Of a stretch of 14,258 nucleotides of DNA, positions 171-14,258 are shown piece after piece (position 1 is the first letter of the stretch; every line of letters begins with the position of its first letter). The notes under the pieces were generated by a model that saw nothing but the letters and a program-made list of their open reading frames with translations, had not been told where the DNA came from and did no database searches. A program made the position numbers and the translations under genes. The stretch lies in assembly GCA_040757115.1 (NCBI GenBank), contig JBFLYA010000094.1:1-14258 (forward strand), in the 5' to 3' direction. The DNA is from a bacterium (GTDB lineage: Bacteria > UBA9089 > CG2-30-40-21 > SBAY01).

Positions 171-950
171 CTAATCGGAGACTAATTTTGTTATATCCTT
201 AAGAATCACATTGGGTTTAAAGATGCCATTTGCTTGTTGGGCCTCCTCGAATGTAGTAACACCTGTAAGAACTAAAACTGTTCGCGCCCCTATGCGATTC
301 CCTGCCAAGATATCAGTTTGCAAAGTGTCACCTACCAATATCACTTCACCAGTGTCTTTTCTACCATTCAATATCAATTCTAATGTAAAAATTTCCGGTT
401 TGCCCAGTATAATTGGTGAACAACCTGTGGCAGATTGTATTGCAGATACTAAAGTCCCTGCCCCTGGCAAAAAGAGGTTTTCTTTAGGAGATAGAAAATC
501 ATTATTAGTGGCAATAAAATTTGCACCCGAAAGAATTAATTGTTGGGCACTCACTAATTTTTTATAGTTAAATGTCTTATCTAATCCTACTATTACATAA
601 TCAACCTTTTTTTTACAATCTGAATTCTCAATGATTTCGACACAAACATTTTTTAATTCCTCTTTAAGTCCCTTTCCACCGATTACAAAAGCGCTTGTAT
701 TTAAAATGTTATTTCGCTCAAAGTAAATCGCAGTAGCATATGCAGCGGTCATGATCTCTTCAATAACACATTGAACGCCCATTCTTTTTAGAAAAGCTAC
801 ATAACCTTCTCTTGTCTTCGAGGTATCATTAGTTAGAAAGAATAGATTATGTCCTCTTTCCCTTAGAATTTTTAATGTCTCTGGGGCCCCGTCAATTACC
901 TTTTTACCACGATAAATAACCCCATCTAAATCAAAGATATATATTGCCAT
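171..950 (-). CDS. HAD superfamily IIA phosphatase (NagD / p-nitrophenylphosphatase-like)
   Basis: A 259-residue cytosolic Mg-dependent phosphohydrolase of the HAD-IIA group, full length for that family. All four HAD motifs are visible: motif I DLDGV with nucleophile Asp7 and acid Asp9; motif II LTN with Thr40 and Asn41; motif III Lys184 in LGKPE; motif IV GDTLQTD with Asp208 and Asp213. The C2-type cap between motifs II and III fits NagD and phosphoglycolate or pyridoxal phosphatases. The ATG at 950 is preferred because AAGGGA lies just upstream. A TTG five codons earlier directly abuts the IlvD stop and has no such site. Only 15 nt separate it from IlvD, so it is co-transcribed and is the last operon gene before the window edge. 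The substrate cannot be read from sequence. A pathway role in removing a phosphate is inference, and a housekeeping or metabolite-repair phosphatase is the alternative. Confidence 0.88.
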   Translation of the reverse strand: MAIYIFDLDGVIYRGKKVIDGAPETLKILRERGHNLFFLTNDTSKTREGYVAFLKRMGVQCVIEEIMTAAYATAIYFERNNILNTSAFVIGGKGLKEELKNVCVEIIENSDCKKKVDYVIVGLDKTFNYKKLVSAQQLILSGANFIATNNDFLSPKENLFLPGAGTLVSAIQSATGCSPIILGKPEIFTLELILNGRKDTGEVILVGDTLQTDILAGNRIGARTVLVLTGVTTFEEAQQANGIFKPNVILKDITKLVSD

Positions 951-965
951 AATTCCCTTGAACAA

Positions 966-2645
966 TTAAAGTGAGCATAGAGTAGCTCCTTCTGATGTTT
1001 TCTGCACATTCCTTTTATAGACTGATAAGAAACCTCTTCTTATCCTCATTTTCGGTCTATAATTCTTAAGCCTCTCTCTAATTATGGATTCCTCCACTTC
1101 AAGGTTAATGCTTTTATTTCTTATGTCTATCTTTATCATATCACCGTTCTTGATGATTCCTATAGCACCTTTTTCTGCTGCCTCGGGACAAATATGTCCT
1201 ATTGCCAGGCCTTTCGTAGCGCCGGAAAATCTCCCGTCGGTTACAACCGCCATGTGCTGATCAAATCCCTTGGCACATAAAGCAGCGGTAACCCCTAACA
1301 TCTCTCTCATGCCAGGCCCACCTTTTGGTCCCTCATTTCTGACAACCACCACTTCTTTCCTGGGTTCTTTTAAGGTATAAAGATATCTTACAGCTTCCTC
1401 TTCAGATTCAAAAACTTTTGCCTTTGCTTTAAAAATCAGCATACTTTCACTGACCGCACTCTTTTTTACAACAGCGCCACATTCTGCTATATTCCCTTTA
1501 AGCACAACAATTCCACCATCTTTTGTAATAAGGTCATCTATGTTCCTTATCACTCTTCTATTTTTGATTTCGGCTTTTTTTATATGGGAATCGATGGTTA
1601 TACCATCTACTGTCATAACCCCTTTGTTAACTAACGGGCCAAGTGCCTTTAAAATCGCCGGGACCCCGCCAGCCCTTTCCAAATTACTCAAAGTATATAC
1701 ACCACTTGGCGTTAATGAGCAGAGATATGGAGTATTTTCACTCAATTTATCAAAATCCTCCAAATCAATACTAATGCCGTTTTCTTTTGCTATTGCTGTC
1801 AGGTGCAAAATCGCATTCGTGGAACCTCCAGTAGATAAAATAACTCTTATAGAATTTTCTATAGATTCTTTTTTTACTATTTTCTTTGGGGTAATATTTC
1901 TCTTCAGCAGATACATGATTTTGCTTCCACTTTCAAAAGCATATTTCAGCCGTCTTTTACTCGTTGCAAGTGGCGTGCTACCTCCTGACAAGATCATTCC
2001 CATCGCTTCTGCCGCTAATGCCATCGTATTAGCTGTAGCCATGTGTGAACATGACCCCGGGGCAGGACATACAGACTTCTCAAATACCTTTAATTCTTCC
2101 TTTGTAATTTCTTTATTAAAATAACGCCAAGCCATTTCATATGCATCTCCACTGCAAAGATTTCTTTTCTCACCAAAAACCCCTGCTTTCATTGGACCGC
2201 CATTTAGTAAAATGGCAGGGATATCGAGTCTCATTGCTGCCATCAACATTCCTGGGATAGCCTTATCACAAGAGGCGACCATAACCATTGCGTCGAAACC
2301 GTGGGCACGGATCATAATCTCTACACTTGCAGCTATAACCTCTCTGCTTGGTAAGGAATACCTCATACCATTATGCATCATCGCGATCCCATCACATATT
2401 CCAATAGTATTAAATTCAAGAGGAGTTCCTCCTAAATCGATAATTCCTTTCTTTATGAATTTGGCTAACCTTCTTAAATGGACATGACCAGGGTTGACTT
2501 CGCTCCATGAGTTGGCTATAGCTATTAAAGGCCTTCTAATTTGATCTTCAGTTAAACCTGTTGCCATTAATAAGGCTCTATGAGCAACTCGTTCTATCCC
2601 TCCAAATACTGCGTCGCTGTTTTTTTTATAATTCTTTACTCTCAT
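966..2645 (-). CDS. ilvD: IlvD/Edd family dehydratase (dihydroxy-acid dehydratase-like)
   Basis: A 559-residue Fe-S dehydratase, normal length for dihydroxy-acid dehydratase, which converts 2,3-dihydroxy-3-methyl acids to 2-keto acids in Val/Ile/Leu synthesis. Hallmarks are in order: NSWSEVNPGHVHL near residue 45, NTIGICDGIAM near 80, Cys126 in SCDK, Cys199 in GSCSHM, and the DGRFSG loop with the probable catalytic Ser474. Position 53 is Gly in PGHVH, as in E. coli IlvD. Classical [2Fe-2S] members carry a PC motif there. The ATG at 2645 is favoured over a GTG three codons upstream because AGGGTG sits 6-9 nt before it. It follows the cyclase gene by 48 nt. No ilvB, ilvN, ilvC or leu genes are nearby, and its companions are an aminotransferase, dehydrogenase and cyclase. 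It may therefore act on a related dihydroxy or sugar acid in this pathway. Family assignment is firm; the substrate and the symbol are less so. Confidence 0.9.
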   Translation of the reverse strand: MRVKNYKKNSDAVFGGIERVAHRALLMATGLTEDQIRRPLIAIANSWSEVNPGHVHLRRLAKFIKKGIIDLGGTPLEFNTIGICDGIAMMHNGMRYSLPSREVIAASVEIMIRAHGFDAMVMVASCDKAIPGMLMAAMRLDIPAILLNGGPMKAGVFGEKRNLCSGDAYEMAWRYFNKEITKEELKVFEKSVCPAPGSCSHMATANTMALAAEAMGMILSGGSTPLATSKRRLKYAFESGSKIMYLLKRNITPKKIVKKESIENSIRVILSTGGSTNAILHLTAIAKENGISIDLEDFDKLSENTPYLCSLTPSGVYTLSNLERAGGVPAILKALGPLVNKGVMTVDGITIDSHIKKAEIKNRRVIRNIDDLITKDGGIVVLKGNIAECGAVVKKSAVSESMLIFKAKAKVFESEEEAVRYLYTLKEPRKEVVVVRNEGPKGGPGMREMLGVTAALCAKGFDQHMAVVTDGRFSGATKGLAIGHICPEAAEKGAIGIIKNGDMIKIDIRNKSINLEVEESIIRERLKNYRPKMRIRRGFLSVYKRNVQKTSEGATLCSL

Positions 2646-2693
2646 TTTCTTCACCCTAATTCATCCGTTAATTACCTGGAATAGATCCGTGAT

Positions 2694-3353
2694 CTACCTC
2701 GTATCACCTAAAATAACGCACGGAGTTCCATCCAGACCGATAAAGAGAGGATAAACATGTACGGTATGTATCTTTTCGATGTAATAGGATAATCTCATAT
2801 CTTCAATGATATATATAGGCGCTTTACTATCACGGGCAAGCAATATTTCATGGACTCTGTGGTTTTCCTCAGGGTAAAGGGAACTCCCTATGGAGATCGT
2901 ATCTATTCCGACAGATTTCAAAGCAGGAAAGGTTTTCTTTAAGTACTGTGCAGCATCCTCCGATATGCCTGGATTCTTCTTAATGTACTTTTCTGGATCT
3001 GAAAATCGATGTTCACCAAATCCTGTTCTGATCAAAAGTAGGTCGCATTTTTTGATTTCACTTTCATATCTCTTCAAATGCTTTCTTTCAATGATTTGTC
3101 TCTCTTTTACAGTAATATCAAGAAAGGCAACTTCATAGTAGGAGAATTCTTCAATGGCTTCTTTGGTATCTCGTTCTTCATATACATGGAGAGGATAATC
3201 AATATGGGTTCCTGTATGGGTGTTCAGCGTTAAACCATAAATGTTCTTTCTATCTCCCTTTTGTATACTGCGAACTGTATGTATAGATAGTCTTTTCAGT
3301 GAGGGATATACAGGCGTATTTTTATATATCGGATAAGAAAGTTTTACGAGCAT
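2694..3353 (-). CDS. cyclase family protein (kynurenine formamidase-like metal hydrolase)
   Basis: A 219-residue protein of the cyclase/KynB superfamily (Pfam Cyclase). The family includes bacterial kynurenine formamidase, isatin hydrolase and polyketide-cyclase-like enzymes, and binds Zn or Mn through an HxGTHxDxPxH motif. That motif is intact: His46, Thr49, His50, Asp52 and His56 in THTGTHIDYPLH. Further family features are the LLIRTG strand near 105-112, GIDTISIG near 150, the HxxLL helix with His168, and a C-terminal PL-x-GLDG-x-P segment. The start overlaps the aminotransferase end by 10 nt and has AAGGA seven bases upstream, so translational coupling is likely. An amide- or lactone-opening (or closing) step in the operon's pathway is inferred. 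Tryptophan catabolism is possible, but no tryptophan dioxygenase or kynureninase is seen. Confidence 0.82.
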   Translation of the reverse strand: MLVKLSYPIYKNTPVYPSLKRLSIHTVRSIQKGDRKNIYGLTLNTHTGTHIDYPLHVYEERDTKEAIEEFSYYEVAFLDITVKERQIIERKHLKRYESEIKKCDLLLIRTGFGEHRFSDPEKYIKKNPGISEDAAQYLKKTFPALKSVGIDTISIGSSLYPEENHRVHEILLARDSKAPIYIIEDMRLSYYIEKIHTVHVYPLFIGLDGTPCVILGDTR

Positions 3354-4522
3354 GACTCTGTCCTTTTCTTCATAAAAGCCTCAAACCTGTTCATTGTCTC
3401 ATTGAGATACTTTTCTTCTAACAAGAAACTCATTCGAAAATACCCTTCTCCCTTTTCTCCAAATGCATTTCCTGGAACGACCACAATTCCTGCTTCTTTA
3501 AGCAGAACTTGTGAAAATTCCCTTGACGAGGAAAATCCCATAGGTACTTTTGCCCAAATATAAAACCCTCCTTCACTTTCAAAAAAATCAATCCCCATTC
3601 GTCTTAACCTATCATTTACCAGATTCCTTCGTTTGTTATATATATCCAGATGTTTCTCTATGTAGTCATCACATCTCAATAGTACTTCGGCGCCAGCATA
3701 CTGAATTGGTAAAAATATTCCGTCATCGATATATGCTTTGACCCTTTGGAGTCCTAATATTATCTCTTGATTCCCGACAATAAATCCTAATCTCCATCCA
3801 GTCATACTATAGCTTTTGGAAAGTGAATGGAACTCTACACAAAATTCTTTTGTATCATTGAATTGTAAGGGAGATATCCTTTCTCTTACAAATGTAATTT
3901 CCGAATAAACATTATCATAGCAGATGATAAGATTATGCTCTCTCGCAAATTCTAAACAGGTTTCCAATCGATCTTTCCGTATTAAAGCACCTGTGGGATT
4001 ATGAGGATAATTAAGAATCATTAATTTTGCTTTTCTGGCGACATCATGAGGAATGTCTTCTGGACATGGTTGAAAGTGTTTATCAAGTGGCATCAGATAC
4101 TGCTGTCCACCCGATAGAATAACTCCTGCATGGTACATCGGATGAGCTATCTCTGGTAGAATTACAATTTCATCTTCTTCAACTAATATTATCATAAGAT
4201 GTATGATACCTTCTTTCGAACCAAGTAAAGGGGTTATTTCACTCTGAGGATCAAGTATTATATTGAATCTTTTGTGATACCACTGTGCGATTGCCTCTCT
4301 TAAGAGCAAAAGCCCATTGCCGAGAGCATAGCGATGATTCTCTTTAATTTCAACCTGTTCTTGCAACTTCCTTACTGCTTCCTCAGGTGCTGCAAAATCA
4401 GGATCACCCAATGATAGATCATAGGTTGGAATTTTCATAATTTCCATTGTACTCTTCTGATTTTTTAATTCGATGAAGGGATATTCTTGCAATCTGTCAT
4501 AACGTCTGTTGAATTTTATCAT
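3344..4522 (-). CDS. class I/II PLP-dependent aminotransferase
   Basis: A 392-residue fold-type I aminotransferase, full length, resembling the aspartate / LL-diaminopimelate aminotransferase-like group. Visible landmarks: SLGDPDF near residue 37 in the substrate-entry loop, RYALGNGLLLLREAIA near 64-79, NYPHNPTG with Asn175, CYDNVYSEI with Asp203 and Tyr206 (pyridine ring contacts), SLSKSYSMTGWRLGF with the Schiff-base Lys236, and Arg363 in YFRMSF for the substrate carboxylate. AGGAG lies nine bases upstream of the ATG, and 24 nt separate it from the dehydrogenase. It overlaps the downstream cyclase by 10 nt. It should interconvert a keto acid and an amino acid, or aminate an aldehyde or ketone made by the neighbouring dehydrogenase. 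The amino-acid-type transporters upstream suggest an amino-acid-like substrate or product. The exact substrate is unknown. Confidence 0.9.
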   Translation of the reverse strand: MIKFNRRYDRLQEYPFIELKNQKSTMEIMKIPTYDLSLGDPDFAAPEEAVRKLQEQVEIKENHRYALGNGLLLLREAIAQWYHKRFNIILDPQSEITPLLGSKEGIIHLMIILVEEDEIVILPEIAHPMYHAGVILSGGQQYLMPLDKHFQPCPEDIPHDVARKAKLMILNYPHNPTGALIRKDRLETCLEFAREHNLIICYDNVYSEITFVRERISPLQFNDTKEFCVEFHSLSKSYSMTGWRLGFIVGNQEIILGLQRVKAYIDDGIFLPIQYAGAEVLLRCDDYIEKHLDIYNKRRNLVNDRLRRMGIDFFESEGGFYIWAKVPMGFSSSREFSQVLLKEAGIVVVPGNAFGEKGEGYFRMSFLLEEKYLNETMNRFEAFMKKRTESCS

Positions 4523-4546
4523 GATACCTTTCTCCTTTATAATTCA

Positions 4547-6094
4547 TTAGCATATTCCGAAAATACGTTCTTTGTCTCTGATTTTTTTTACCGCGTATTT
4601 ATATTTTTTTTGAATATGCTTATCTACCCACTCATATAAATCCTTATCATCCCTCTTTCCCCACCCCATCCTCACATTGTATGGTTTAATAAAATGATAA
4701 TTGTTTAAGATATCTGCAAGTAATCCCTCAATCAATCGGATTTCCTTTAAATCATTGGTGAATGAGCTTTTCTTAGTAGCCATTTTTAAAATATCCAAAA
4801 GTATTTTTTCTCTTATCATCGCGATTCCCGAGAAATCCTGTTTCCCTCTCAATATCATCAGAAGTTGCTCATCATTGATTTTGAGATTAAGAGGACCATT
4901 AATTATTTTTGATTTTTCGGTCTCAATGATATCCATGTAGCTACACAGATTCATTTCACTCTCTTGTAAAACAATTGGGAGATTGGCCCTTCTTAAAAAG
5001 AACTTAATGAAGTTTTCAATATAATCAATAACTTTATTTATTAGTTCACCTTGTTCATTAGTAGTCGTAGGAATGTGAAAAATTTCGCTTAACCTTTGTA
5101 GCTTCTGGACGGCACTCGTGGATTCTTGCACTAAGAAACGAAGGGTGCTGGGGAGTAATATGGCAACCATGTTCCCATGCATTATTTTGTATTTGTTGCA
5201 AAGATGCACTAAACTGTGTGCGAGTCCTAATCCACCCTTTTCATATGTAACATTAAAGTTAGAAATTGCATGAAGATAGCCTGCGATACTTAACTCCCAC
5301 AAAATATTTTCATTTATGTTTCCTTCTAAGTACGATGGCAAATTTTTATCAAAGAGTCTGATGGCTTCCAACGACAAAAGGTCATTGAATGTATTTGAAT
5401 TGGGGTTCACGAATGTTTCTATTGACTGGCAAAATCCATCAAGTCCGGTTATGGTTGCCTGCCTTACAGAGACTGACGAGAGAAAAAGAGGGTCAATGAG
5501 CACAAAAGGGACTTTTAGTCCTCTAACACTTGTCTTAATATCACCATTACCAATATATACAGCACAATCATTTCCCTCAGATCCTGAGCTCACAATGGTC
5601 GGCACAGCAATCATCTGTATTCTCTTTTCACTATTGAATGGTTGTTTATCTATTAAATAGTCTTCAATCTCACCCTCTTGAAGAGCAAGAGATGCTGTAC
5701 ACTTAGCCACGTCGATAACCGTTCCTCCACCTAACGCAATCAAGACATCCACCGCCTCTCTGCATATTATATCAGTGAGTTCTTTTATTGCAGTAATTGA
5801 AGGTTCTTGAATTTTATTAAAGTAAATAAACTTATTATTTAAATTATTAAGTGATCTTCTGATCATTGGTAAATATGTATTTGAGAAATGAATATCTTTA
5901 TATGTTGCAATAAGAATAGATTTTGCTGTCTTAATCTCAGGAATAATATCAGCCATACGCAATAGAATATTATTTCCGATGAATGCTCTTCCCAAAAATC
6001 GGACGTGTTTCTTTATTTCCTCCGTGAAAAGTATTTCTCCTGTTACCGAATCAATATCAAACAGTGATTTAAACCCATTTACTAAATCTTTCAT
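4547..6094 (-). CDS. iron-containing alcohol dehydrogenase family protein, atypical and extended
   Basis: A 515-residue member of the Fe-ADH / dehydroquinate-synthase-like superfamily, about 120 residues longer than usual. The NAD(P)-binding ALGGGTVIDVAK motif is near residues 120-131, followed by VPTIVSSGSE near 164-173. Expected metal ligands are Asp219 in TGLDGFCQ and His293 and His306 in GLAHSLVHLCNKYKIMHG, with His297 as the extra conserved His. The position that is normally the second ligand (His in TGxDAxxH) is Gln223. Roughly the last 90 residues, after the usual family end, form a basic helical-looking extension of unknown function. The ATG at 6094 has AAGGA eight bases upstream. A GTG at 6145 would add 17 residues and overlap the LysE gene by 17 nt, but has no good SD. 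It probably reduces or oxidises an aldehyde, alcohol or polyol intermediate; a changed or lost metal is possible. Confidence 0.8.
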   Translation of the reverse strand: MKDLVNGFKSLFDIDSVTGEILFTEEIKKHVRFLGRAFIGNNILLRMADIIPEIKTAKSILIATYKDIHFSNTYLPMIRRSLNNLNNKFIYFNKIQEPSITAIKELTDIICREAVDVLIALGGGTVIDVAKCTASLALQEGEIEDYLIDKQPFNSEKRIQMIAVPTIVSSGSEGNDCAVYIGNGDIKTSVRGLKVPFVLIDPLFLSSVSVRQATITGLDGFCQSIETFVNPNSNTFNDLLSLEAIRLFDKNLPSYLEGNINENILWELSIAGYLHAISNFNVTYEKGGLGLAHSLVHLCNKYKIMHGNMVAILLPSTLRFLVQESTSAVQKLQRLSEIFHIPTTTNEQGELINKVIDYIENFIKFFLRRANLPIVLQESEMNLCSYMDIIETEKSKIINGPLNLKINDEQLLMILRGKQDFSGIAMIREKILLDILKMATKKSSFTNDLKEIRLIEGLLADILNNYHFIKPYNVRMGWGKRDDKDLYEWVDKHIQKKYKYAVKKIRDKERIFGIC

Positions 6095-6128
6095 CCTTTT
6101 TTTCCTTGGTATATTTACTCTGTTTACT

Positions 6129-6788
6129 TTAGATTGCACCTTCACTCTTTAGAAGTTTGTGAAGTGATTCTATAAAGAATATGATGCTAAAAATAATTAA
6201 TATCACCGATAAAATGATAACCAGAACTTTATATTTCTTTTGGATAATTCTGCTGAATTTGTCTTTTGTAATCAAATACACAATTGTTCCAAATATGGAG
6301 AACAGAGCACTCAGAAAACCTAGCTCAAAGGATACTACATATCCTTGTCCCCTTTGTTTTAACTCCCACAGGGTCTTCAGACCTATTGTGCTCGTCCACA
6401 CGACGGCATAGGGGTTAAAAATAGTGATGTAAAAACCCTTCCACATTGTGCTTTCAAAAGACTTTTTTTCGTCTGAATTGTTGAACGGATACTTTGATTT
6501 TCTAATCCCTTCCATTCCTATAAGGAGCAACAGGACCGAACTGACGAAACCTAACGAAATTATAAAATGTTTGTTTCCTATATTTTGGATACCCAGCGTT
6601 AAAATAATTCCCATTATAATGATTGCACCTGTTGTACCTACTATGAATTTGATTCCTGATCTTCTTCCTTTGTGAATTGTTTCAGCTACTAACAGTGCCA
6701 TATGGGGACCCGGCATTAGAAATATGGGTGCCCCCAGGAGATACCCTTTTATATAAACTATAATTAATGCCTTATATGATATTTCCAT
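6129..6788 (-). CDS. LysE family amino-acid exporter
   Basis: A 219-residue inner-membrane protein with about six hydrophobic segments, the size and layout of LysE/RhtB/ArgO exporters. The family's first-segment motif is present as PGPH (residues 26-29), followed by the basic loop HKGRRSGIKFIVGTTGA. The FNPYAVVW motif occurs near residue 126, after a hydrophilic loop of about 90-115. This family exports amino acids or small amino-acid-like metabolites. The ATG at 6788 is chosen; a TTG five codons earlier is possible, and neither has a strong SD. It overlaps the end of the tandem Lrp-like gene by 17 nt, so translation is probably coupled. Its position next to an Lrp-like protein mirrors known LysE/regulator pairs. 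Export of the operon's product, or relief from a toxic amino acid, is inferred. Confidence 0.82.
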   Translation of the reverse strand: MEISYKALIIVYIKGYLLGAPIFLMPGPHMALLVAETIHKGRRSGIKFIVGTTGAIIIMGIILTLGIQNIGNKHFIISLGFVSSVLLLLIGMEGIRKSKYPFNNSDEKKSFESTMWKGFYITIFNPYAVVWTSTIGLKTLWELKQRGQGYVVSFELGFLSALFSIFGTIVYLITKDKFSRIIQKKYKVLVIILSVILIIFSIIFFIESLHKLLKSEGAI

Positions 6789-7968
6789 TTGCAACAGTTC
6801 CAATATGGTTCCATGGAAAATGTCGAGGTGGCATTTGATTGTCCTTTATCCTCTCAGAAATATCCACCGTATTGAATTTATATATCCACTTTACCTTCAC
6901 AATATCGATGCGCATATGATTGGGATATAATGAAAAAATATTTTTCTCAATATAGTCAAGCAATATACTTTCATTGCGGGTGTGTGCTGCCAGCACAAAA
7001 TTATAATTGTTGCCTTCTAAAGATACAACTACGCAAAACAAGTCTAGGTTCAATAAATGTGTTTTGATTTTTTTCTGCACTTCCTCCGAAACAAAATCAC
7101 ATATTTTAATGTAAAGTTGAAACCGTTCGGTACCACTCTCGTCCTTTATAATCACTGTAGGACTAATTATCTTCTTTTTTATAAGTAAATACAATAATAC
7201 TTTTACCCTCAGTTTTGATAAGTTGGTCTCTTTCGATAGGCGGTGTACAGATGGTATAGGATTATTGCCAAGTGCCTCTATTAATTTTTTTTCATTCTCA
7301 CTCAAGTGATAAGTCTTGCATCTTTTTTTGTAGTATTCTATTTTCCTATGTGATAATTTAGGCGGGTCATAGCTTCTTATAAAAAGACTATCTCCCGTAT
7401 CATTCTCGCTGAAGTAATAACGTACTGCCCCATGATATTTAGGAGAATCAAACCTTCCTGCCTCTTTAAATATCATATCCACTCTGTCATATATAATTTT
7501 CTCAACAAGAGAACTTTCTTTTAGCAAACAGAATATAGGATTCTCCTCAATTGGCTCATTGTGTCCAAATATTCCCACACTAAGTTGAAATTGACTATAA
7601 TTTTCATAGACATAGAGTGTTAGATGACTCTCAGATAATCTCTTTATTAACTGTACTATCGCTGTTTTCTCATTTTCAGTGGAAACATCCTTTATGATGA
7701 TTAATGTTGCATAGATTTGATAGGGAAGGACATTCCAATTAATATGCACAATCGGCAAAAGATATCGTTTCTGAAATAGGTTCTTTATACGCTGTTTTGT
7801 CTCAGAGATATTCAAACCTATCTTTTTCGACAGTTTCTCAGGCCTTATGTAAAGGCATGATTTTAGATGTATGGCAATATCAACATCCTTCTTATCTAAA
7901 TTTATCCAAAGTAAGTTATCCTGTATTGTAATATTAACATCCTTCTTATCTAAAAATAAGTCATCCAT
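6772..7968 (-). CDS. tandem Lrp/AsnC-like protein (two HTH-RAM halves)
   Basis: A 398-residue soluble protein that appears to hold two Lrp/AsnC-like units, where the family norm is one of about 150 residues. Unit 1: a winged-HTH-like segment, about 25-70, starting LDKKDVDIAIHL and running through KLSKKIGLNISETKQRIKNL, then an alternating strand/helix region to about 170 like a RAM ligand domain. Unit 2: a second HTH-like segment, about 222-272 (LSENEKKLIEAL, SVHRLSKETNLSKLRVKVLLYLL), then another RAM-like region to about 375. The first 20 residues look like a duplicated copy of the start of unit 1. The ATG at 7968 has AAGGA six bases upstream. It lies between two amino-acid-type transporters, so sensing an amino acid and regulating this operon is plausible. 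Siroheme decarboxylases (AhbA/B) also use this fold, but I see no heme genes. The assignment rests on pattern, not on a diagnostic residue. Confidence 0.62.
   Translation of the reverse strand: MDDLFLDKKDVNITIQDNLLWINLDKKDVDIAIHLKSCLYIRPEKLSKKIGLNISETKQRIKNLFQKRYLLPIVHINWNVLPYQIYATLIIIKDVSTENEKTAIVQLIKRLSESHLTLYVYENYSQFQLSVGIFGHNEPIEENPIFCLLKESSLVEKIIYDRVDMIFKEAGRFDSPKYHGAVRYYFSENDTGDSLFIRSYDPPKLSHRKIEYYKKRCKTYHLSENEKKLIEALGNNPIPSVHRLSKETNLSKLRVKVLLYLLIKKKIISPTVIIKDESGTERFQLYIKICDFVSEEVQKKIKTHLLNLDLFCVVVSLEGNNYNFVLAAHTRNESILLDYIEKNIFSLYPNHMRIDIVKVKWIYKFNTVDISERIKDNQMPPRHFPWNHIGTVANGNII
7882..7954 (-). repeat. in-frame 54-nt-period duplication in the Lrp-like gene
   Basis: The 19-base string aacatccttcttatctaaa occurs exactly at 7882-7900 and again at 7936-7954. 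The similarity extends left with one mismatch through a shared aatat. The 54-nt period is 18 codons, so the protein carries LDKKDVNITIQ followed by LDKKDVDIAIH. The second copy is where an Lrp-type HTH would normally begin, so the first is probably an added N-terminal copy. Confidence 0.8.
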
Positions 7969-7984
7969 ATTATATCCTTATATC

Positions 7985-9415
7985 TTATTGATGGGGTCTA
8001 CTGCGATTAATGGTCCGGCATTTTCTATACATCTCAATATAATAAAACAGCCATCCTATACCCATAACTGCAGTCCAGAAGGCTGCCATTTTAATGACTG
8101 TATAATATAATCCAATAAGTATTATGAGATAAACCAGCATACTAATTACTCCCATTATACGCATAAGTTTTAATATATTTCTTGTGTTCTTAGGAAATAT
8201 GTTACTCAACTCCTCTTCCCTTATCTTGAAAGGCATATAGCTAGTCACCAGCAGACCAAAACTATATGAGAAATTGGCATAAAAACCCAAGACAGGATTA
8301 GTAATAAATATTAATATAAGGAAGGCAATAGTATATACAATAACAAGTTGTACCACTGGGGTGGAAAATGTTCGAGATACGTAAGTCAGCCCTTTTACTT
8401 TATTGAAAAAGCCATCTATTGATACTGCATACCCGTGCCTTGCAGAGCGGAATCCTAACATGAACATATTATCGAAGACAGCAACAAACAAGAGGAATGT
8501 AATAAATGCATATACTGATGCCGGCATATAGATTGAGAGAGCATCAATAGCGGTGAAATCTTTGTTTATCCCGACTTTGATATATATATATTGCCAAGGA
8601 ACCGCATTATAAAGAACATAACTGACTATGATATAGAAAATAGTGGCAAGGGTTAATGCAATGATGATTACTTTCCAAATCTTTCTCCTTACTTCAGTAT
8701 GTATTTCTGCTCCAGCATTCTGAGTGAATGTAACACCTCCGTAGCTAAACATCAGGATAGCTATTCCCATCAAAAGTCCCTTCCAGGTAATCGGAGGATA
8801 ATTTGAATTTTCGAGGATTTTTATAAGTGATTCCTGACTTTCTATTGTGCTAAGGAAGTCGTTATAATTATGCCCGATAGCATAATAGGTAAATAAAAGT
8901 AGCAAAACAAGTGTTATTCCTGAAGTAATCAGAGTTGCTTTTCCCTCCATTCCCGTATAATTTACGAAGAAACTTATTCCCATCAGAATTGTTGAGACAA
9001 CCAGTAAATTATCAATGATGAAGTTTGAAAGTTCAAGAAATCCCATAAGTTTGAACAACTGGGCTAAAATGACCGTGCCTGTGATTGCAGCGCCCTGTAA
9101 CTGCATAGGAATTACAAACCAATATCCCCATGTGTTAATAGCTCCCCAGAAGGGGCTTACCTTTCGTGTCAAATAAGTATAGTCTCCTCCATAGCTCGGC
9201 CAAATTGATGATGAAACTCCCGCAATAAATGCTGAAAAAAATGCAGGGATGGCACCAATTATAAGTGCCAAATATACAAAATTCCCTATAGTTTCTTTCT
9301 GTAATTTACCCAATACCTGAACAGAGATAATAAATATCCCCAGTCCAACACATACTGAAAAAGACATTGAGATTAATTCAAGAAAACTATACTTTGGGGT
9401 TTTAATATCACTCAT
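7985..9415 (-). CDS. APC superfamily amino acid permease
   Basis: A 476-residue inner-membrane transporter with about 12 predicted membrane segments, typical of the amino acid-polyamine-organocation superfamily. The first segment contains GLGIF (compare the family's GxGIF substrate-backbone site). PSYGGDYTYLTRKVSPFWG near residue 75 matches the conserved loop after segment 2, and SYGGVTFTQNAGAEI near 223 resembles the segment 6 region. AGGAG lies seven bases upstream of the ATG, and the gene sits 27 nt after the ligase and 16 nt before the tandem Lrp-like gene. It likely imports, or exchanges, an amino acid or related amine. Together with the LysE exporter two genes on, it brackets the presumed sensor. 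Whether it brings in a precursor or exchanges the product cannot be decided here. Confidence 0.87.
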   Translation of the reverse strand: MSDIKTPKYSFLELISMSFSVCVGLGIFIISVQVLGKLQKETIGNFVYLALIIGAIPAFFSAFIAGVSSSIWPSYGGDYTYLTRKVSPFWGAINTWGYWFVIPMQLQGAAITGTVILAQLFKLMGFLELSNFIIDNLLVVSTILMGISFFVNYTGMEGKATLITSGITLVLLLLFTYYAIGHNYNDFLSTIESQESLIKILENSNYPPITWKGLLMGIAILMFSYGGVTFTQNAGAEIHTEVRRKIWKVIIIALTLATIFYIIVSYVLYNAVPWQYIYIKVGINKDFTAIDALSIYMPASVYAFITFLLFVAVFDNMFMLGFRSARHGYAVSIDGFFNKVKGLTYVSRTFSTPVVQLVIVYTIAFLILIFITNPVLGFYANFSYSFGLLVTSYMPFKIREEELSNIFPKNTRNILKLMRIMGVISMLVYLIILIGLYYTVIKMAAFWTAVMGIGWLFYYIEMYRKCRTINRSRPHQ

Positions 9416-9442
9416 ATGGACACTCCTTTTCTCTGGAAGTTA

Positions 9443-10870
9443 TCATTCCTTTTGTTTCTTCCTTAAGTCTACAATTCTGTTTCCTTTTAATGACCCTTCT
9501 ATTATATCGGTAGATATGTCATCCTTATCTTTTACGATTACTTCTGGAGTTATTTCTGTCAATGATTTGACTTCATTTTTAATATTTCTGATTAGTTCGT
9601 TATGATCTTTTTCTTTACTCGCTATTTCAATCAACAATTTATCTAATGAATAAATATCCTTTTCGTTCTGTTTTGTAATGACAATTCGAAATTCTTGCAA
9701 ATAGCTTGTTGAATTAAGAAAATCTAATAAAGAATTCAAATTTATTGTAGTCCCTTTGATTTTCGTAATATTGAGTGATCTACAATATTCATCACTTCTT
9801 CCCAATGGCCCAAGAATTCGAGGGAGCGTTAATTCGCAGTGAGGACATTTTCTATATGATATCCCTCCTTCTGCTTGATCCCCGATTAAATAGCGTAGTA
9901 AGATAGTTCCATGACCATCGAGATGAGTAAAAGCTATGTCCCCCCCTTTTTCCCATCCTATATTTTTTCCTGTTTTAGGGTCGACACATTCCCAAAAAAT
10001 AACCTCAGGATTAGCATGGTAGCCGCTATATGGCGCACATTCCATTGCGACTAGCTTAGTTTCCACTACGCCATAACCATCCCTCACACATTTTTTCTCT
10101 TTTCCACCAAGTTGTTCCACCATTTCCTCTATTTTCTGTCTTAAGCCATCAGATAATCTTTCCCCCCCAGTGATAATTCCCTTTAACTGCTTGAATTTTA
10201 CTCCTTGTTCTAAAGCTTTAGAAAGGAAGTAATTTATATAACTAGTTGTGCCGGCCAACCAGTTACATTCAAATTTCTCTGAAAGTTCTATTTGGCGTTT
10301 AGTCCCCAGAACAGATCCTGTGTGCACGCCGGTAAGACCCATCTCTTCAGTAGCAAAATATACAATCCAGAAGGCAAGATGAGGTGCATAGGGAAACAAT
10401 GAAATAAATTTATCTTCTAAGGAAACACCGGCGATCTGGGCATTCTTTGCATAAATCTGCTTGAATATTGTCAGATCATACTTCGTAAAAAAAATTGGTG
10501 TTGAATTACTGGTCCTTCCAGATGTTGCAGTAAAAAAGGAGGGACGATATTTAGATTGAAGAAGGGATTTCACCTTTGTTTTCCCCATGAGTATCCATTT
10601 TATCTTTGTTGGAAAATGGAGGCTCGATTTTATTGTTTTTTCTGAAGGTTGGAGAATAAAAGATCTTGGGGAATTAATAAGATCCTCTTTTGTCGTAAAG
10701 GGAAGCATTTCAAGATCATTTATAGATCGTATACTGTAAGGATTTATTTTCATTTTTTTGAACATTTCCTTATAGAACGGATGAAAATGAACAATTTTAT
10801 TTTGGACCATATCTTGCAGTTTATAATTCTGTAACCTAATTACTTCTTCTTTAGATTTAAATTTGTACAT
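9443..10870 (-). CDS. PaaK-like adenylate-forming ligase (phenylacetate-CoA ligase / F390 synthetase family)
   Basis: A 475-residue ATP-dependent acid-activating enzyme. It aligns by motif with phenylacetate-CoA ligase: an N-terminal helical region ending FHPFYKEMF near 29-37, ATP-loop equivalent FFTATSGRTSNSTP near 112-125, GGERLS near 235-240, DGYGVVET near 264-271, ECxxxxGxH near 277-285, CPHC near 342-345, the hinge GRSDEY near 357-362, and a C-terminal SLKGNRIVDLRK with the probable catalytic lysine. The usual SSGTTGKP loop is altered. Cys278, His285, Cys342 and Cys345 could form a structural metal site. It overlaps the chorismate-enzyme gene by 31 nt, so coupling is likely. It probably adenylates an aromatic or other carboxylate, perhaps salicylate or a derivative, and passes it to CoA or an amine. 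The acceptor is unknown, and no carrier protein is nearby. Confidence 0.82.
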   Translation of the reverse strand: MYKFKSKEEVIRLQNYKLQDMVQNKIVHFHPFYKEMFKKMKINPYSIRSINDLEMLPFTTKEDLINSPRSFILQPSEKTIKSSLHFPTKIKWILMGKTKVKSLLQSKYRPSFFTATSGRTSNSTPIFFTKYDLTIFKQIYAKNAQIAGVSLEDKFISLFPYAPHLAFWIVYFATEEMGLTGVHTGSVLGTKRQIELSEKFECNWLAGTTSYINYFLSKALEQGVKFKQLKGIITGGERLSDGLRQKIEEMVEQLGGKEKKCVRDGYGVVETKLVAMECAPYSGYHANPEVIFWECVDPKTGKNIGWEKGGDIAFTHLDGHGTILLRYLIGDQAEGGISYRKCPHCELTLPRILGPLGRSDEYCRSLNITKIKGTTINLNSLLDFLNSTSYLQEFRIVITKQNEKDIYSLDKLLIEIASKEKDHNELIRNIKNEVKSLTEITPEVIVKDKDDISTDIIEGSLKGNRIVDLRKKQKE

Positions 10871-12177
10871 TGCCTTTGCTCTCTCGAAGTTATGGCTCTT
10901 ATCATAGCAGCCATTTTGTATTTCGTCTCATTAAATTCATCCAACGGGTTGGAAGCACCTACAATGCCTGCACCGGACCTGATATAGTAATTGTTTGGAC
11001 TCTCTGAAAAAATGCATCTTATAGCAATAGGAAATTCACCTTGCCCTTCTGAATTAAAATATCCTACTACTCCAGCATACAAATCACGTGGAGTATCTTC
11101 TATTTTATTTATATACTTTATTGCAATGTCCTTTGGCACGCCTGAAACAGTAATAGCAGGGAAAAGTATTTGTAGTGCATCAAAAATATCTTTTCCTTTT
11201 TGATATATTCCTGAGATTTGCGAAAAAATATGTCTAACACTTTTATACTCCTTAATTTCCATGAATCGTTTCACATTTACTTTTTCGGGGACACAAAACA
11301 TTTTCATCTCTCTGTACGCAGCCATTACTGAAATTGCATGTTCGAATATTTCCTTTTCATTAGTAAGAAGTTCATTCCTAAGATGTAAATCCCTAATTGG
11401 ATTGGAACTCCTCTGTTTTGTGCCTGCAAGGACATTTGTAAAGACTTGTTTTGAATCAGATGACAATAATATTTCAGGACTGCAGCCGATTATTTTTATA
11501 TTTGAATATTCTAACAAGAAATTCGTTAATGAGTTATTAAACTGCTTATAATAAAAATATAGTTCTATAGGCTTTAATTGTATTTCAAAATGCCTTATTC
11601 GCGAAATGATTATCTTTTTTAAAATATTTTTTTCAATCAAATTTTGACAAGAGTATATTTTCCTGATAAAATCATCTTTTCCTTCCTCATCATTTATATC
11701 ACATTCAACAACTTTTACGATCTCCTGCTTTTCACGTGAACTATCCACTAGATAGTCGGCATAATATTCAGGATTGTCGCTTATTATTTGACAATAGTTA
11801 GTGTAGAAAAGCATCTGCACACCAGGCTGAATAAATTCTATTAACGGCAAAGTGTTGGTTTTCGTGTAATCGTAATAATATTTCGATAGATCAAAAGAAA
11901 TATATCCAAACAGTTTCAACTCATTACCTAATTTCTTTAGTATATGTCTAAATTCGCTGTAGGGAGATTCCGATGGCATTTCTTCTATTGTTATATCATA
12001 TCTTTTTAAGTGCCATTTATCATTTTGTAACTTTATTGTGTACGTCGGTATAGATCCTACGACAGACACATTATTATTCTCATAAATAAACGAATATTCT
12101 CCTCCTAATGAGTGTTCCTGCAATTTTTCATATGTTTTTATAGGGTCAAAGTACCCACCAATTGTAATCGTTTTCAT
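10840..12177 (-). CDS. chorismate-utilising enzyme, isochorismate/salicylate synthase type
   Basis: A 445-residue single-domain member of the TrpE/PabB/MenF superfamily, close in length to the salicylate synthases Irp9 and MbtI. Visible: Lys188 in KIIISR, where isochorismate/salicylate synthases place the lysine that activates water (ammonia-using anthranilate and ADC synthases usually have Gln); Glu235 in GCSPEILLS; AGTKQR at 251-256; Mg-site helix NEKEIFEH near 273-280; His316 in RHIFSQISG; AITVSGVPK at 341-349, like the ASG(I/V)PK loop of salicylate synthases; and GAGIVGASNPLDEFNET at 402-418. AGGA lies eight bases before the ATG. It should convert chorismate to isochorismate and possibly on to salicylate plus pyruvate. 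No separate isochorismate-pyruvate lyase, isochorismatase or menD is in the window. The distinction between isochorismate and salicylate synthase is inferred. Confidence 0.82.
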   Translation of the reverse strand: MKTITIGGYFDPIKTYEKLQEHSLGGEYSFIYENNNVSVVGSIPTYTIKLQNDKWHLKRYDITIEEMPSESPYSEFRHILKKLGNELKLFGYISFDLSKYYYDYTKTNTLPLIEFIQPGVQMLFYTNYCQIISDNPEYYADYLVDSSREKQEIVKVVECDINDEEGKDDFIRKIYSCQNLIEKNILKKIIISRIRHFEIQLKPIELYFYYKQFNNSLTNFLLEYSNIKIIGCSPEILLSSDSKQVFTNVLAGTKQRSSNPIRDLHLRNELLTNEKEIFEHAISVMAAYREMKMFCVPEKVNVKRFMEIKEYKSVRHIFSQISGIYQKGKDIFDALQILFPAITVSGVPKDIAIKYINKIEDTPRDLYAGVVGYFNSEGQGEFPIAIRCIFSESPNNYYIRSGAGIVGASNPLDEFNETKYKMAAMIRAITSREQRQCTNLNLKKK

Positions 12178-12212
12178 TATTATATTCCTTTACAGTTTGT
12201 TTCATTTTCTTT

Positions 12213-13112
12213 TCATTTAAACTTAATTAATCCAAGGATATAACTTCCATATAAAATTGTTGATGCAACGATATTTGTCGATAAAGTCTTCCATCCCATG
12301 AATGACGATGGGAATACCACAGTTTTAATCGCAGAGGGAAGACTAATTAACAGGCTTATAATCACTAATAATACATAATAAGGAGATAACCATTTTAGAT
12401 ATGCTGGTATTATTGCGATTAAATATCCTGCCGATAGAAAAAATACCCCGACCAGTGATGCTCTTTTTATACCAATGTTGACTGCAAAAGTATTAATGTT
12501 TAATTGCTTATCTGAGTCATAATCCTTAATACAACCAAATATATGCACACCTGTGTGATAGAAAATTGTTGATAAAATGATTAGGAGATGTAATTTCGTT
12601 ACATGATTTGCACCCAAACTGCCCATTAAATATGACGAGGATATGAGGCTCGCAAAAAAGAGGCTTCCCCATAATGACATAAACTTGAAATATTTATTAT
12701 AGATTTGAGTGAAAAAGCATATAGTAATAGCTACCACAAAACACCATATGTTTAAATAATAAGCAATAAAAAAGGATAGCAAATAAATTATTATCGTAAG
12801 TATCATAGATTCCTTAATACTTATTGCTCCCCGAGCAATTGGGAAGTTCTCTTTAATGGCACCAATATCATATGCACCGTCCTTTGCAATAGATATGGCC
12901 TTTCGGTCAATCTGCACATCCAAAATCTGATTAGTTACCATTCCACCCCACCATAGAAGTAAGATAACAATTGTGGACAGGAGAATTTTATTGAAGTCAT
13001 AATCTCCCATATCATGTATTCCTATCAGAGTTCCCGTGAGAGATGCTACCATTGGGTATGTTGAATACCTTATCCTTAGTAAATCTTTATAGACGTATAA
13101 TCTCCTCATCAT
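12213..13112 (-). CDS. UbiA family prenyltransferase
   Basis: A 299-residue integral membrane protein with about eight to nine membrane helices, the normal UbiA size. The first Asp-rich motif is intact as NQILDVQID (Asn61, Asp65, Asp69), for Mg-diphosphate binding. The second is KDYDSDKQLNINTFAV (Asp197, Asp199, Asp201), matching the DxxxD...xxTLAV pattern of UbiA and MenA. It should transfer a prenyl chain to an aromatic or other acceptor at the membrane. GAGGG lies six bases before the first of two adjacent ATGs. It follows the CBS gene by 61 nt and precedes the chorismate enzyme by 35 nt, which suggests a chorismate-derived acceptor. No other ubiquinone, menaquinone, heme or chlorophyll gene is visible, so a dedicated aromatic prenyltransferase is the working guess. 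Geranylgeranylglycerol-phosphate synthase-type or MenA roles are alternatives. Confidence 0.85.
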   Translation of the reverse strand: MMRRLYVYKDLLRIRYSTYPMVASLTGTLIGIHDMGDYDFNKILLSTIVILLLWWGGMVTNQILDVQIDRKAISIAKDGAYDIGAIKENFPIARGAISIKESMILTIIIYLLSFFIAYYLNIWCFVVAITICFFTQIYNKYFKFMSLWGSLFFASLISSSYLMGSLGANHVTKLHLLIILSTIFYHTGVHIFGCIKDYDSDKQLNINTFAVNIGIKRASLVGVFFLSAGYLIAIIPAYLKWLSPYYVLLVIISLLISLPSAIKTVVFPSSFMGWKTLSTNIVASTILYGSYILGLIKFK

Positions 13113-13173
13113 CTCTTTCCCTCTTCAATATAGTATGTCTCTATGTATCATTGCCTAATATTCCTGTTCTTGA

Positions 13174-13695
13174 TCATTGCTTCATTTTTCGTTTAATAAA
13201 GTCCTTAATCTTATGCCTCCAAGATGCTGTTGTGTCAGATTTTTGAGAACAGATTTTGCATTCCATACCATTAATTTCAACCCGAATTAGGGGCGTTCTT
13301 GCTATATTAAATAGGGCATTAAAAATGTCTTTTTGATAAAGCATCCCTGATAAGCAATCTTCTTCAACTACTGGAAAGTTATAAAGTCCTGTTTTTATAA
13401 CAAGGTCAACTACATCTATCAAACTCATTGTTGGTGTTACGGTGACAGGTTTTGTCATAAACTCTTCTACGAATATCTCATCAAGCCAGTAAGCAATCTC
13501 GTGTTTGCTTAAAGTGGTTGCAATAGACGGAAGAGCTCGCGCAATGTTTCCTCTTGTTACCACACCAACAAGTTTACCATTACTGGTGACCGGGAGTATC
13601 TTTATTTCTTGCATTTGAAATGTTCTTTCGGCTTCACGAATTGAAGTCTTTTTACTCACAGAGTTGCATTTACTCATAATTTCACTCACTATCAT
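13174..13695 (-). CDS. tandem CBS-domain protein
   Basis: A 173-residue soluble protein with two CBS domains forming one Bateman module. CBS1 is about 1-60 (SEIMSKCNSVSKKTSIREAE, LPVTSNGKLVGVVTRGNIARAL). CBS2 is about 77-135 (EEFMTKPVTVTPTMSLIDVV, FPVVEEDCLSGMLYQKDIFNAL). Such modules bind adenosyl compounds (AMP, ATP, SAM). The remaining 40 residues hold a CKIC pair near 148-151 and a very basic end (KIKDFIKRKMKQ). No catalytic domain is attached, so it is probably a regulator or partner protein. AAGG lies about nine bases upstream of the ATG. It is the first gene after the 108-nt gap that follows the AraC gene, and so the likely head of the operon. An energy- or SAM-sensing control role is inference. 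Confidence 0.85.
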   Translation of the reverse strand: MIVSEIMSKCNSVSKKTSIREAERTFQMQEIKILPVTSNGKLVGVVTRGNIARALPSIATTLSKHEIAYWLDEIFVEEFMTKPVTVTPTMSLIDVVDLVIKTGLYNFPVVEEDCLSGMLYQKDIFNALFNIARTPLIRVEINGMECKICSQKSDTTASWRHKIKDFIKRKMKQ

Positions 13696-13803: not shown

Positions 13804-14148
13804 CTATTTGTTCATCCTACGATATTCAATAGGTGAATATTTTACTCTTTCTTTAAATCTTCTAGTAAAACTGCTCCAGTGTGAATAACCAACTTCATAG
13901 GCTATCTGGTCGATTGTTAAATTAGTATTTTTTAATAACTTTTTTGCATATTCCATTTTTATTTCTATACACAAATGGTTGAAACTTTTACTATTATTTT
14001 TCTTAAATGTCCTGCTTAGATGTCTTAGACTTAATCCCACTTTATTGGCTATCTCGTATAACCTATACTTACCATTGCTTGTCTTAAGTAATTCTTTTGC
14101 CTTCTCTATTCGATTATCTAAATCTAATGGATATTTGCTACATAGCAT
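13804..14148 (-). CDS. stand-alone AraC-type DNA-binding protein
   Basis: A 114-residue protein consisting almost only of the AraC/XylS DNA-binding domain. First helix-turn-helix is about 29-52 (YRLYEIANKVGLSLRHLSRTFKKN); second is about 77-100 (LTIDQIAYEVGYSHWSSFTRRFKE), followed by the family signature ending SPIEYRR. Full AraC regulators are about 250-300 residues, so the sensor domain is absent. In-frame TAA at 14169-14167 shows no longer version exists here. The ATG at 14148 has AGGGTG nine bases upstream. GTG at 14160 is possible but lies directly against the AGG. It is transcribed toward the operon and 108 nt from it, so control of the operon is plausible. It may be a natural short regulator, or the 3' remnant of a gene cut by the repeat-bearing sequence upstream, since the start overlaps a repeat copy. 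Confidence 0.8.
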   Translation of the reverse strand: MLCSKYPLDLDNRIEKAKELLKTSNGKYRLYEIANKVGLSLRHLSRTFKKNNSKSFNHLCIEIKMEYAKKLLKNTNLTIDQIAYEVGYSHWSSFTRRFKERVKYSPIEYRRMNK

Positions 14149-14256
14149 AACATCGTGCACCCTATTTTAATACAAATTTATAGCAGGACATCGTGCACTC
14201 TCACCCCATGGGGTGAGCGAAATTCTAATCCTCAAAAATAGCAGGACATCGTGCAC
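14143..14256 (+). repeat. three direct copies of an 18-bp repeat
   Basis: Copies of tagcaggacatcgtgcac lie at 14181-14198 and 14239-14256, identical to each other. A variant with two changes (tagcataacatcgtgcac) lies at 14143-14160. Start-to-start distances are 38 and 58 bp, so they are not evenly spaced. Each copy ends in the palindrome gtgcac. The leftmost copy spans the start region of the AraC gene. Clustered subterminal repeats of this size occur at the ends of IS21-family elements, and repeated operators are the alternative. The window stops two bases after the last copy, so the array may continue. Confidence 0.8.
14200..14217. repeat. perfect 18-bp palindrome between repeat copies
   Basis: The sequence ctcacccca followed by its exact reverse complement tggggtgag forms an uninterrupted 18-bp palindrome one base after the second repeat copy. 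With no loop bases and no following T-run it is not a typical terminator. Its GC content is well above that of the surroundings. It could be a dimeric protein-binding site or part of a mobile-element end. Confidence 0.75.
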
Positions 14257-14258
14257 CT

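Follow-up and report, generated by a model that had tools for sequence, protein, structure and literature searches.

Gene content and layout of the locus

The stretch of DNA analysed here (the window, 14,258 bp) is one entire contig, C94 of genome G000, whose assembly comprises 4.3 Mb in 462 contigs and is 99.9% complete. Its minus strand carries twelve co-directional open reading frames between positions 171 and 13,695. In transcription order they encode a CBS-domain protein, a UbiA prenyltransferase, a chorismate enzyme, a PaaK-like ligase, an APC permease, a protein at first described as tandem Lrp-like, a LysE exporter, an Fe-ADH-like protein, an aminotransferase, a cyclase, an IlvD-family enzyme and a HAD phosphatase (Table 1). 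The gaps between neighbours, in the same order, are +61, +35, -31, +27, +16, -32, -17, +24, -10, +39 and 0 nt, and these coordinates (ORF list and start analysis; range -32 to +61 nt) bear out the initial annotation's picture of twelve close-packed minus-strand genes. Starts are uncertain in several genes, among them those for the LysE exporter and the HAD phosphatase (candidate ATG positions in Table 1) and that for the Fe-ADH-like protein, which perhaps begins at ATG 6094, preceded by a Shine-Dalgarno-like AAGGA. The packing predicts co-transcription of the twelve genes as one operon-like unit. A terminator scan of both strands of the window gave nine weak sites against 7.4 expected by chance, and Rfam found no RNA element there (the sole match, to a snoRNA with E 0.94, is a chance one). 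The first gene of the unit is apparently that for the CBS protein, and 170 non-coding bases lie at the opposite end of the contig, which is cut at both ends.

Table 1. Features of the window, with position, strand and supporting evidence
Feature	Coordinates	Strand	Evidence
HAD-IIA phosphatase (phosphoglycolate/p-nitrophenyl phosphatase-like), likely start ATG 950	171..965	-	Profiles; PH1952 1zjj 8e-47
IlvD paralogue (dihydroxy-acid dehydratase family)	966..2654	-	TIGR00110
Cyclase/kynurenine-formamidase-like metal hydrolase, HTGTHIDYPLH motif	2694..3353	-	PF04199 88 bits; PDB 8hmo, 1r61, 4cz1
Class I/II aminotransferase, LL-DAP/alanine aminotransferase-like	3344..4522	-	Profiles
Divergent Fe-ADH-fold protein, 532 aa	4547..6145	-	Pfam, alignment, predicted structure
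LysE-type amino-acid exporter, start perhaps ATG 6788	6129..6803	-	PF01810 57.8 bits
Orphan protein of winged-helix type, 398 aa, perhaps with two Lrp-like units	6772..7968	-	Sub-threshold profiles
APC-family amino-acid permease	7985..9415	-	PF13520 70 bits
PaaK-like adenylate-forming ligase, family marker FPYAPHLAFW	9443..10870	-	PaaK profiles, family profile
Salicylate/isochorismate synthase-like enzyme, general-base Lys188	10840..12177	-	Pfam/NCBIfam, solved structures, tree
UbiA prenyltransferase, NQxxDxxxD and DxxxD motifs; archaeal DGGGP synthase-like	12213..13112	-	Profiles, solved structure
Protein with two CBS domains, at the head of the unit	13174..13695	-	PF00571, two stretches
AraC-type DNA-binding domain only, 118 aa	13804..14160	-	Pfam; start codon inside element end
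Terminus of multicopy element	14136..14258		Three GTGCACGATGTCCTGCTAT-type repeats around CTCACCCCATGGGGTGAG palindrome

The terminal ~123 bases of the right end are shared with four further contigs of the same genome (C110, C121, C139 and C221), where they again lie at contig ends. Beyond a shared boundary, TGTAGCA, the sequences of the element-bearing contigs differ, and several contigs break at the element; this stretch is the end of a multicopy mobile element. The AraC-type gene is probably truncated: because its start codon comes from the element and it encodes a DNA-binding domain only, it probably represents a 3' gene fragment left by insertion.

Enzymes, transporters and candidate sensors

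Pfam and NCBIfam confirm the families initially assigned to the UbiA protein, the chorismate enzyme (Chorismate_bind), the two transporters (AA_permease_2 and LysE), the Fe-ADH-like protein (Fe-ADH), the aminotransferase (Aminotran_1_2), the cyclase (Cyclase), the IlvD protein and the phosphatase (HAD-IIA). The chorismate enzyme scores 227 bits against Chorismate_bind, and its best matches among solved structures are salicylate synthases, of the Irp9 type (3e-44) and MbtI (3e-37). A tree of 17 rows places it as sister to the four annotated salicylate synthases included (support 93/90, below the starred threshold, on a long branch) and separate from both TrpE/PabB and EntC/MenF. In the alignment its water-activating position, K188, is Lys also in EntC, MenF and the four salicylate synthases and Gln in TrpE/PabB; Lys188 and the eleven further active-site positions checked are all kept. 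The earlier call of an isochorismate/salicylate-type synthase is thereby supported at family level. Because the score of 248.4 bits lies under the curated salicylate synthase cut-off of TIGR03494 (325), the enzyme is labelled salicylate/isochorismate synthase-like and not a member; it appears to be a divergent sister of the salicylate synthases, with salicylate or isochorismate as its predicted product. TrpE (C27) and PabB (C332, with a PIKGT motif) are encoded by separate genes outside the contig. The ligase gene overlaps the chorismate enzyme gene by 31 nt, and in annotated records and plasmids a salicylate synthase and a neighbouring acyl ligase form a recurring pair. Another salicylate synthase cluster with a cyclase-family gene lies on a Staphylococcus saccharolyticus plasmid (L198, 3938-7209), where the synthase stands beside cyclase-family, cupin, SRPBCC and AMP-binding genes.

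For the PaaK-like protein every Pfam domain is under its cut-off. PaaK profiles do match it, and its family profile matches solved PaaK structures, which supports an adenylate-forming, PaaK-fold ligase, in line with the PaaK-like ligase first proposed. Its 92 bits stand against a cut-off of 646 for TIGR02155 (phenylacetate-CoA ligase), and salicylate may not be its substrate. The UbiA protein scores 95.6 bits (Pfam cut-off 34.2), and its Asp-rich motifs NQILDVQID and DYDSD are intact in translation. By profile comparison it is distant from MenA models; its sole clear solved relative is an archaeal DGGGP synthase, which is of the lipid type, so that the acceptor could equally well be lipid-like or aromatic. 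Compared with the archaeal homologue 6m31, the protein has a longer stretch past the first Asp-rich motif (KAISIAKDGAYDIGAIKENFPIARG).

The translations of the downstream enzymes retain the nucleophile Asp of the HAD protein, the HxGTHxDxPxH motif of the cyclase and the PLP Lys of the aminotransferase (within SLSKSYSMTGWR). The IlvD protein reaches 654 bits against the TIGR00110 cut-off of 618 and keeps the three Cys of the Fe-S motifs (C87, C129 and C202). A housekeeping IlvD encoded on contig C6 is 98.4% identical to that of the same-genus genome G001, whereas the window IlvD has 46-50% identity to every IlvD in the phylum, including ~50% to the C6 copy, and differs at 51 of the 218 positions invariant among them; it is therefore a distinct paralogue. 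The Fe-ADH-like protein carries ~110 additional C-terminal residues in the alignment, and of the metal-binding set D, H, H, H one member is altered, the first His being Gln, so that DxxxH reads DGFCQ. The fold is that of Fe-ADH: its predicted structure (pLDDT 69) matches 8zwd in Foldseek at 2e-20.

The orphan regulator was described initially as a tandem Lrp-like protein. Its winged-helix matches are all sub-threshold, with no Pfam domain over cut-off, and a search of 386 genomes gave a single relative, an ordinary Lrp/AsnC protein that matches the first half and not the second. The Lrp-like call is therefore weak, and two Lrp-like units are no more than possible; a direct comparison of the halves found no mutual similarity, and the fold prediction (pLDDT 33) is uninformative. 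At the start of the gene, a 33-nt direct repeat (7868-7954; 91%, 54-nt spacing) marks an in-frame 54-bp duplication of LDKKDV-type residues.

Occurrence in other genomes

The searched set includes 19 genomes of the phylum, from a collection that covers one genome per species, and the full gene set is carried by this genome alone among the 19, which makes the cluster an accessory island. Within the phylum, the PaaK-like ligase and a full-length Fe-ADH-like protein occur only here, as does the orphan regulator, apart from one weak match to an Lrp protein, and UbiA gives only matches of 1e-4 to 1e-10 in other genomes. In G001 no orthologue was found of UbiA, the PaaK-like ligase, the Fe-ADH-like protein, the orphan regulator, the chorismate enzyme, the APC permease, the cyclase or the window IlvD, and a concatenated IlvD-cyclase-permease query matched only its housekeeping IlvD. 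Either this genome acquired the cluster or its sister G001 lost it, and the difference is fairly recent given the 98.4% core-protein identity, although the G001 assembly is itself split into 770 contigs.

The PaaK-like family is broad: members that share 30-37% identity with the window's ligase occur in Woesearchaeota, Planctomycetota, Verrucomicrobiota, Bacillota and further groups. The named genome-wide search gave no matches with the PaaK-like protein alone as query; a nine-member alignment recovered 80 loci in unrelated neighbourhoods. Flanks of up to 10 kb around these best 80 loci held no recognisable further gene of the cluster in a comparable layout, apart from lone matches to the aminotransferase, the cyclase or Fe-ADH. 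Because one short peptide pattern served for the named scan and the searches cover one genome per species, a rare second copy of the cluster could be missed. In two Nanoarchaeota loci (L098, 10731-11462; L115, 11361-11984) a PaaK-like ligase gene is convergent with a cyclase-family gene; these were rejected as related clusters, the cyclase neighbours being convergent, distant and alone. A contig of genome G057 with three weak matches (UbiA-, PaaK- and Fe-ADH-like) was likewise rejected as a second cluster, its genes being unrelated and scattered. Plasmids yielded no relatives of the orphan regulator, two archaeal DGGGP synthase-like matches to UbiA and distant matches only to the Fe-ADH-like protein; scans of viral contigs found nothing.

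Conserved linkage, whose lack the initial annotation had named as refuting its proposal, was not found as far as searched, which counts against that proposal. The accessory distribution in the phylum fits joint gain or loss of one unit, although a single occurrence is compatible as well with genes that just came to lie adjacent. The same annotation placed the gene set outside the standard pathways, and the literature searched agrees, with no report of such a cluster or of UbiA, a salicylate synthase and a PaaK-like ligase together. The gene combination is real, tight and accessory, and apparently unreported.

Interpretation and comparison with known systems

Our preferred reading, which we hold tentatively and at rather less than even confidence, is an accessory metabolic operon of this single genome, with two enzymatic branches, transport and sensing. 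In the first branch, the salicylate/isochorismate synthase-like enzyme would convert chorismate to salicylate (or isochorismate), the PaaK-like ligase would activate the aryl acid to its AMP or CoA ester, and UbiA would prenylate an aromatic acceptor. In the second, the HAD phosphatase, the IlvD paralogue and the aminotransferase could act in the order phosphatase, dehydratase, aminotransferase, taking a (phospho)dihydroxy acid through a 2-oxo acid to a non-protein amino acid, which LysE would export; going by the chemistry of the families, one might guess at a four-carbon phospho-acid yielding a homoserine-like product. The cyclase-type hydrolase and the Fe-ADH-like protein may serve in tailoring, the APC permease and LysE exporter would move the amino-acid-like compound, with the CBS protein and the winged-helix orphan as its possible sensors. 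The substrates of all the enzymes are predictions, as is any joining of the branches in one product. The packing, the residues and grouping of the chorismate enzyme, the separate TrpE and PabB genes, the recurrence of synthase/ligase pairs, the IlvD paralogue and the absence from G001 support a two-branch operon. Against it stand the one occurrence, the lack of conserved linkage in the genomes searched, the widespread PaaK-like family in unrelated contexts, a ligase that may not act on salicylate, the changed Fe-ADH ligand and the lipid-type relative of UbiA.

A stronger version would make the locus one pathway free of NRPS and PKS, in which a PaaK-activated, possibly UbiA-prenylated salicylate-type acid is combined with a non-protein amino acid from the IlvD paralogue and aminotransferase, LysE serving as the exporter and the orphan regulator, with two units, as the sensor; this we consider unlikely. 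The initial annotation had gone in this direction with a shared product, perhaps a prenylated or amidated aromatic amino-acid-like compound. One such product is possible, its support being the adjacency of the genes in a single genome, and the one-compound reading is unproven because none of the other genomes searched carries the combination.

Almost as likely as the preferred reading is that two or more unrelated accessory functions lie side by side, sharing a transcript or a strand and not a product: UbiA, chorismate enzyme and ligase for aryl or lipid chemistry, and an amino-acid operon from permease to phosphatase for uptake, export and biosynthesis. The failure to find conserved linkage favours such a division, as do the position of both transporters and the regulator in the second half, with a natural break between ligase and permease, and the score of the window IlvD above a curated dihydroxy-acid dehydratase cut-off. 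The proposed break is, however, a 27-nt gap with a good ribosome-binding site, where the scan found no terminator-like site, and both halves include members absent from G001. Far less probable is a piece of a larger salicylate siderophore cluster with NRPS or PKS genes beyond the contig ends. Close salicylate synthases do adjoin ligases and NRPS/PKS genes, and both ends are cut, but NRPS or PKS modules, a carrier protein, TonB and a siderophore transporter are all absent within the 14-kb contig, the transporters present are amino-acid types, and the operon apparently starts at the CBS gene and has 170 non-coding bases at its end. A quinone-type pathway from chorismate through isochorismate to UbiA prenylation, like MenF/MenA, is about as improbable as the siderophore reading: isochorismate synthases adjoin UbiA in Bacteroidetes menaquinone loci (PMC5445326), but menaquinone is disfavoured because no MenD reaches the cut-off in the 99.9%-complete genome (best 58 bits against 244), MenB, MenC, MenE and MenH are absent from the contig, the UbiA protein has little likeness to MenA models and the chorismate enzyme groups with salicylate synthases and not MenF.

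Should the genes make up one pathway, an uncultured lineage would have a kind of natural-product route that mining by core enzymes (NRPS/PKS rules) may overlook, and aryl and amino-acid chemistry would have drawn in a PaaK-like ligase and an IlvD paralogue. Otherwise the locus is still an accessory operon of unusual make-up, several of whose proteins are divergent within their families.

Several known systems share parts of this arrangement. Pairs of an Irp9/MbtI-type salicylate synthase with an MbtA/YbtE-type or benzoate-CoA-ligase-type enzyme likewise join a Lys-base synthase to an adenylate-forming ligase, here with overlapping genes; the window ligase, however, is PaaK-like and not MbtA/DhbE-like, and in place of a carrier protein, NRPS or PKS the window has UbiA and amino-acid genes. 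Menaquinone loci with MenF and UbiA (MenA) also have an isochorismate-type enzyme adjoining UbiA, whereas the window lacks MenD, MenH, MenC, MenE and MenB and its UbiA resembles archaeal DGGGP synthase. Lrp-BrnFE is an example of an Lrp-controlled amino-acid export unit. The possible Lrp-like regulator beside a LysE-type exporter recalls units of this type, but the window regulator, an orphan in which two units are putative, lies amid biosynthetic genes. With valine/isoleucine biosynthesis the window shares an IlvD family enzyme that has its Fe-S cysteines and exceeds the TIGR00110 cut-off; here, in contrast, that enzyme is a ~50% paralogue with 51 of 218 invariant positions changed, and the housekeeping copy lies elsewhere.
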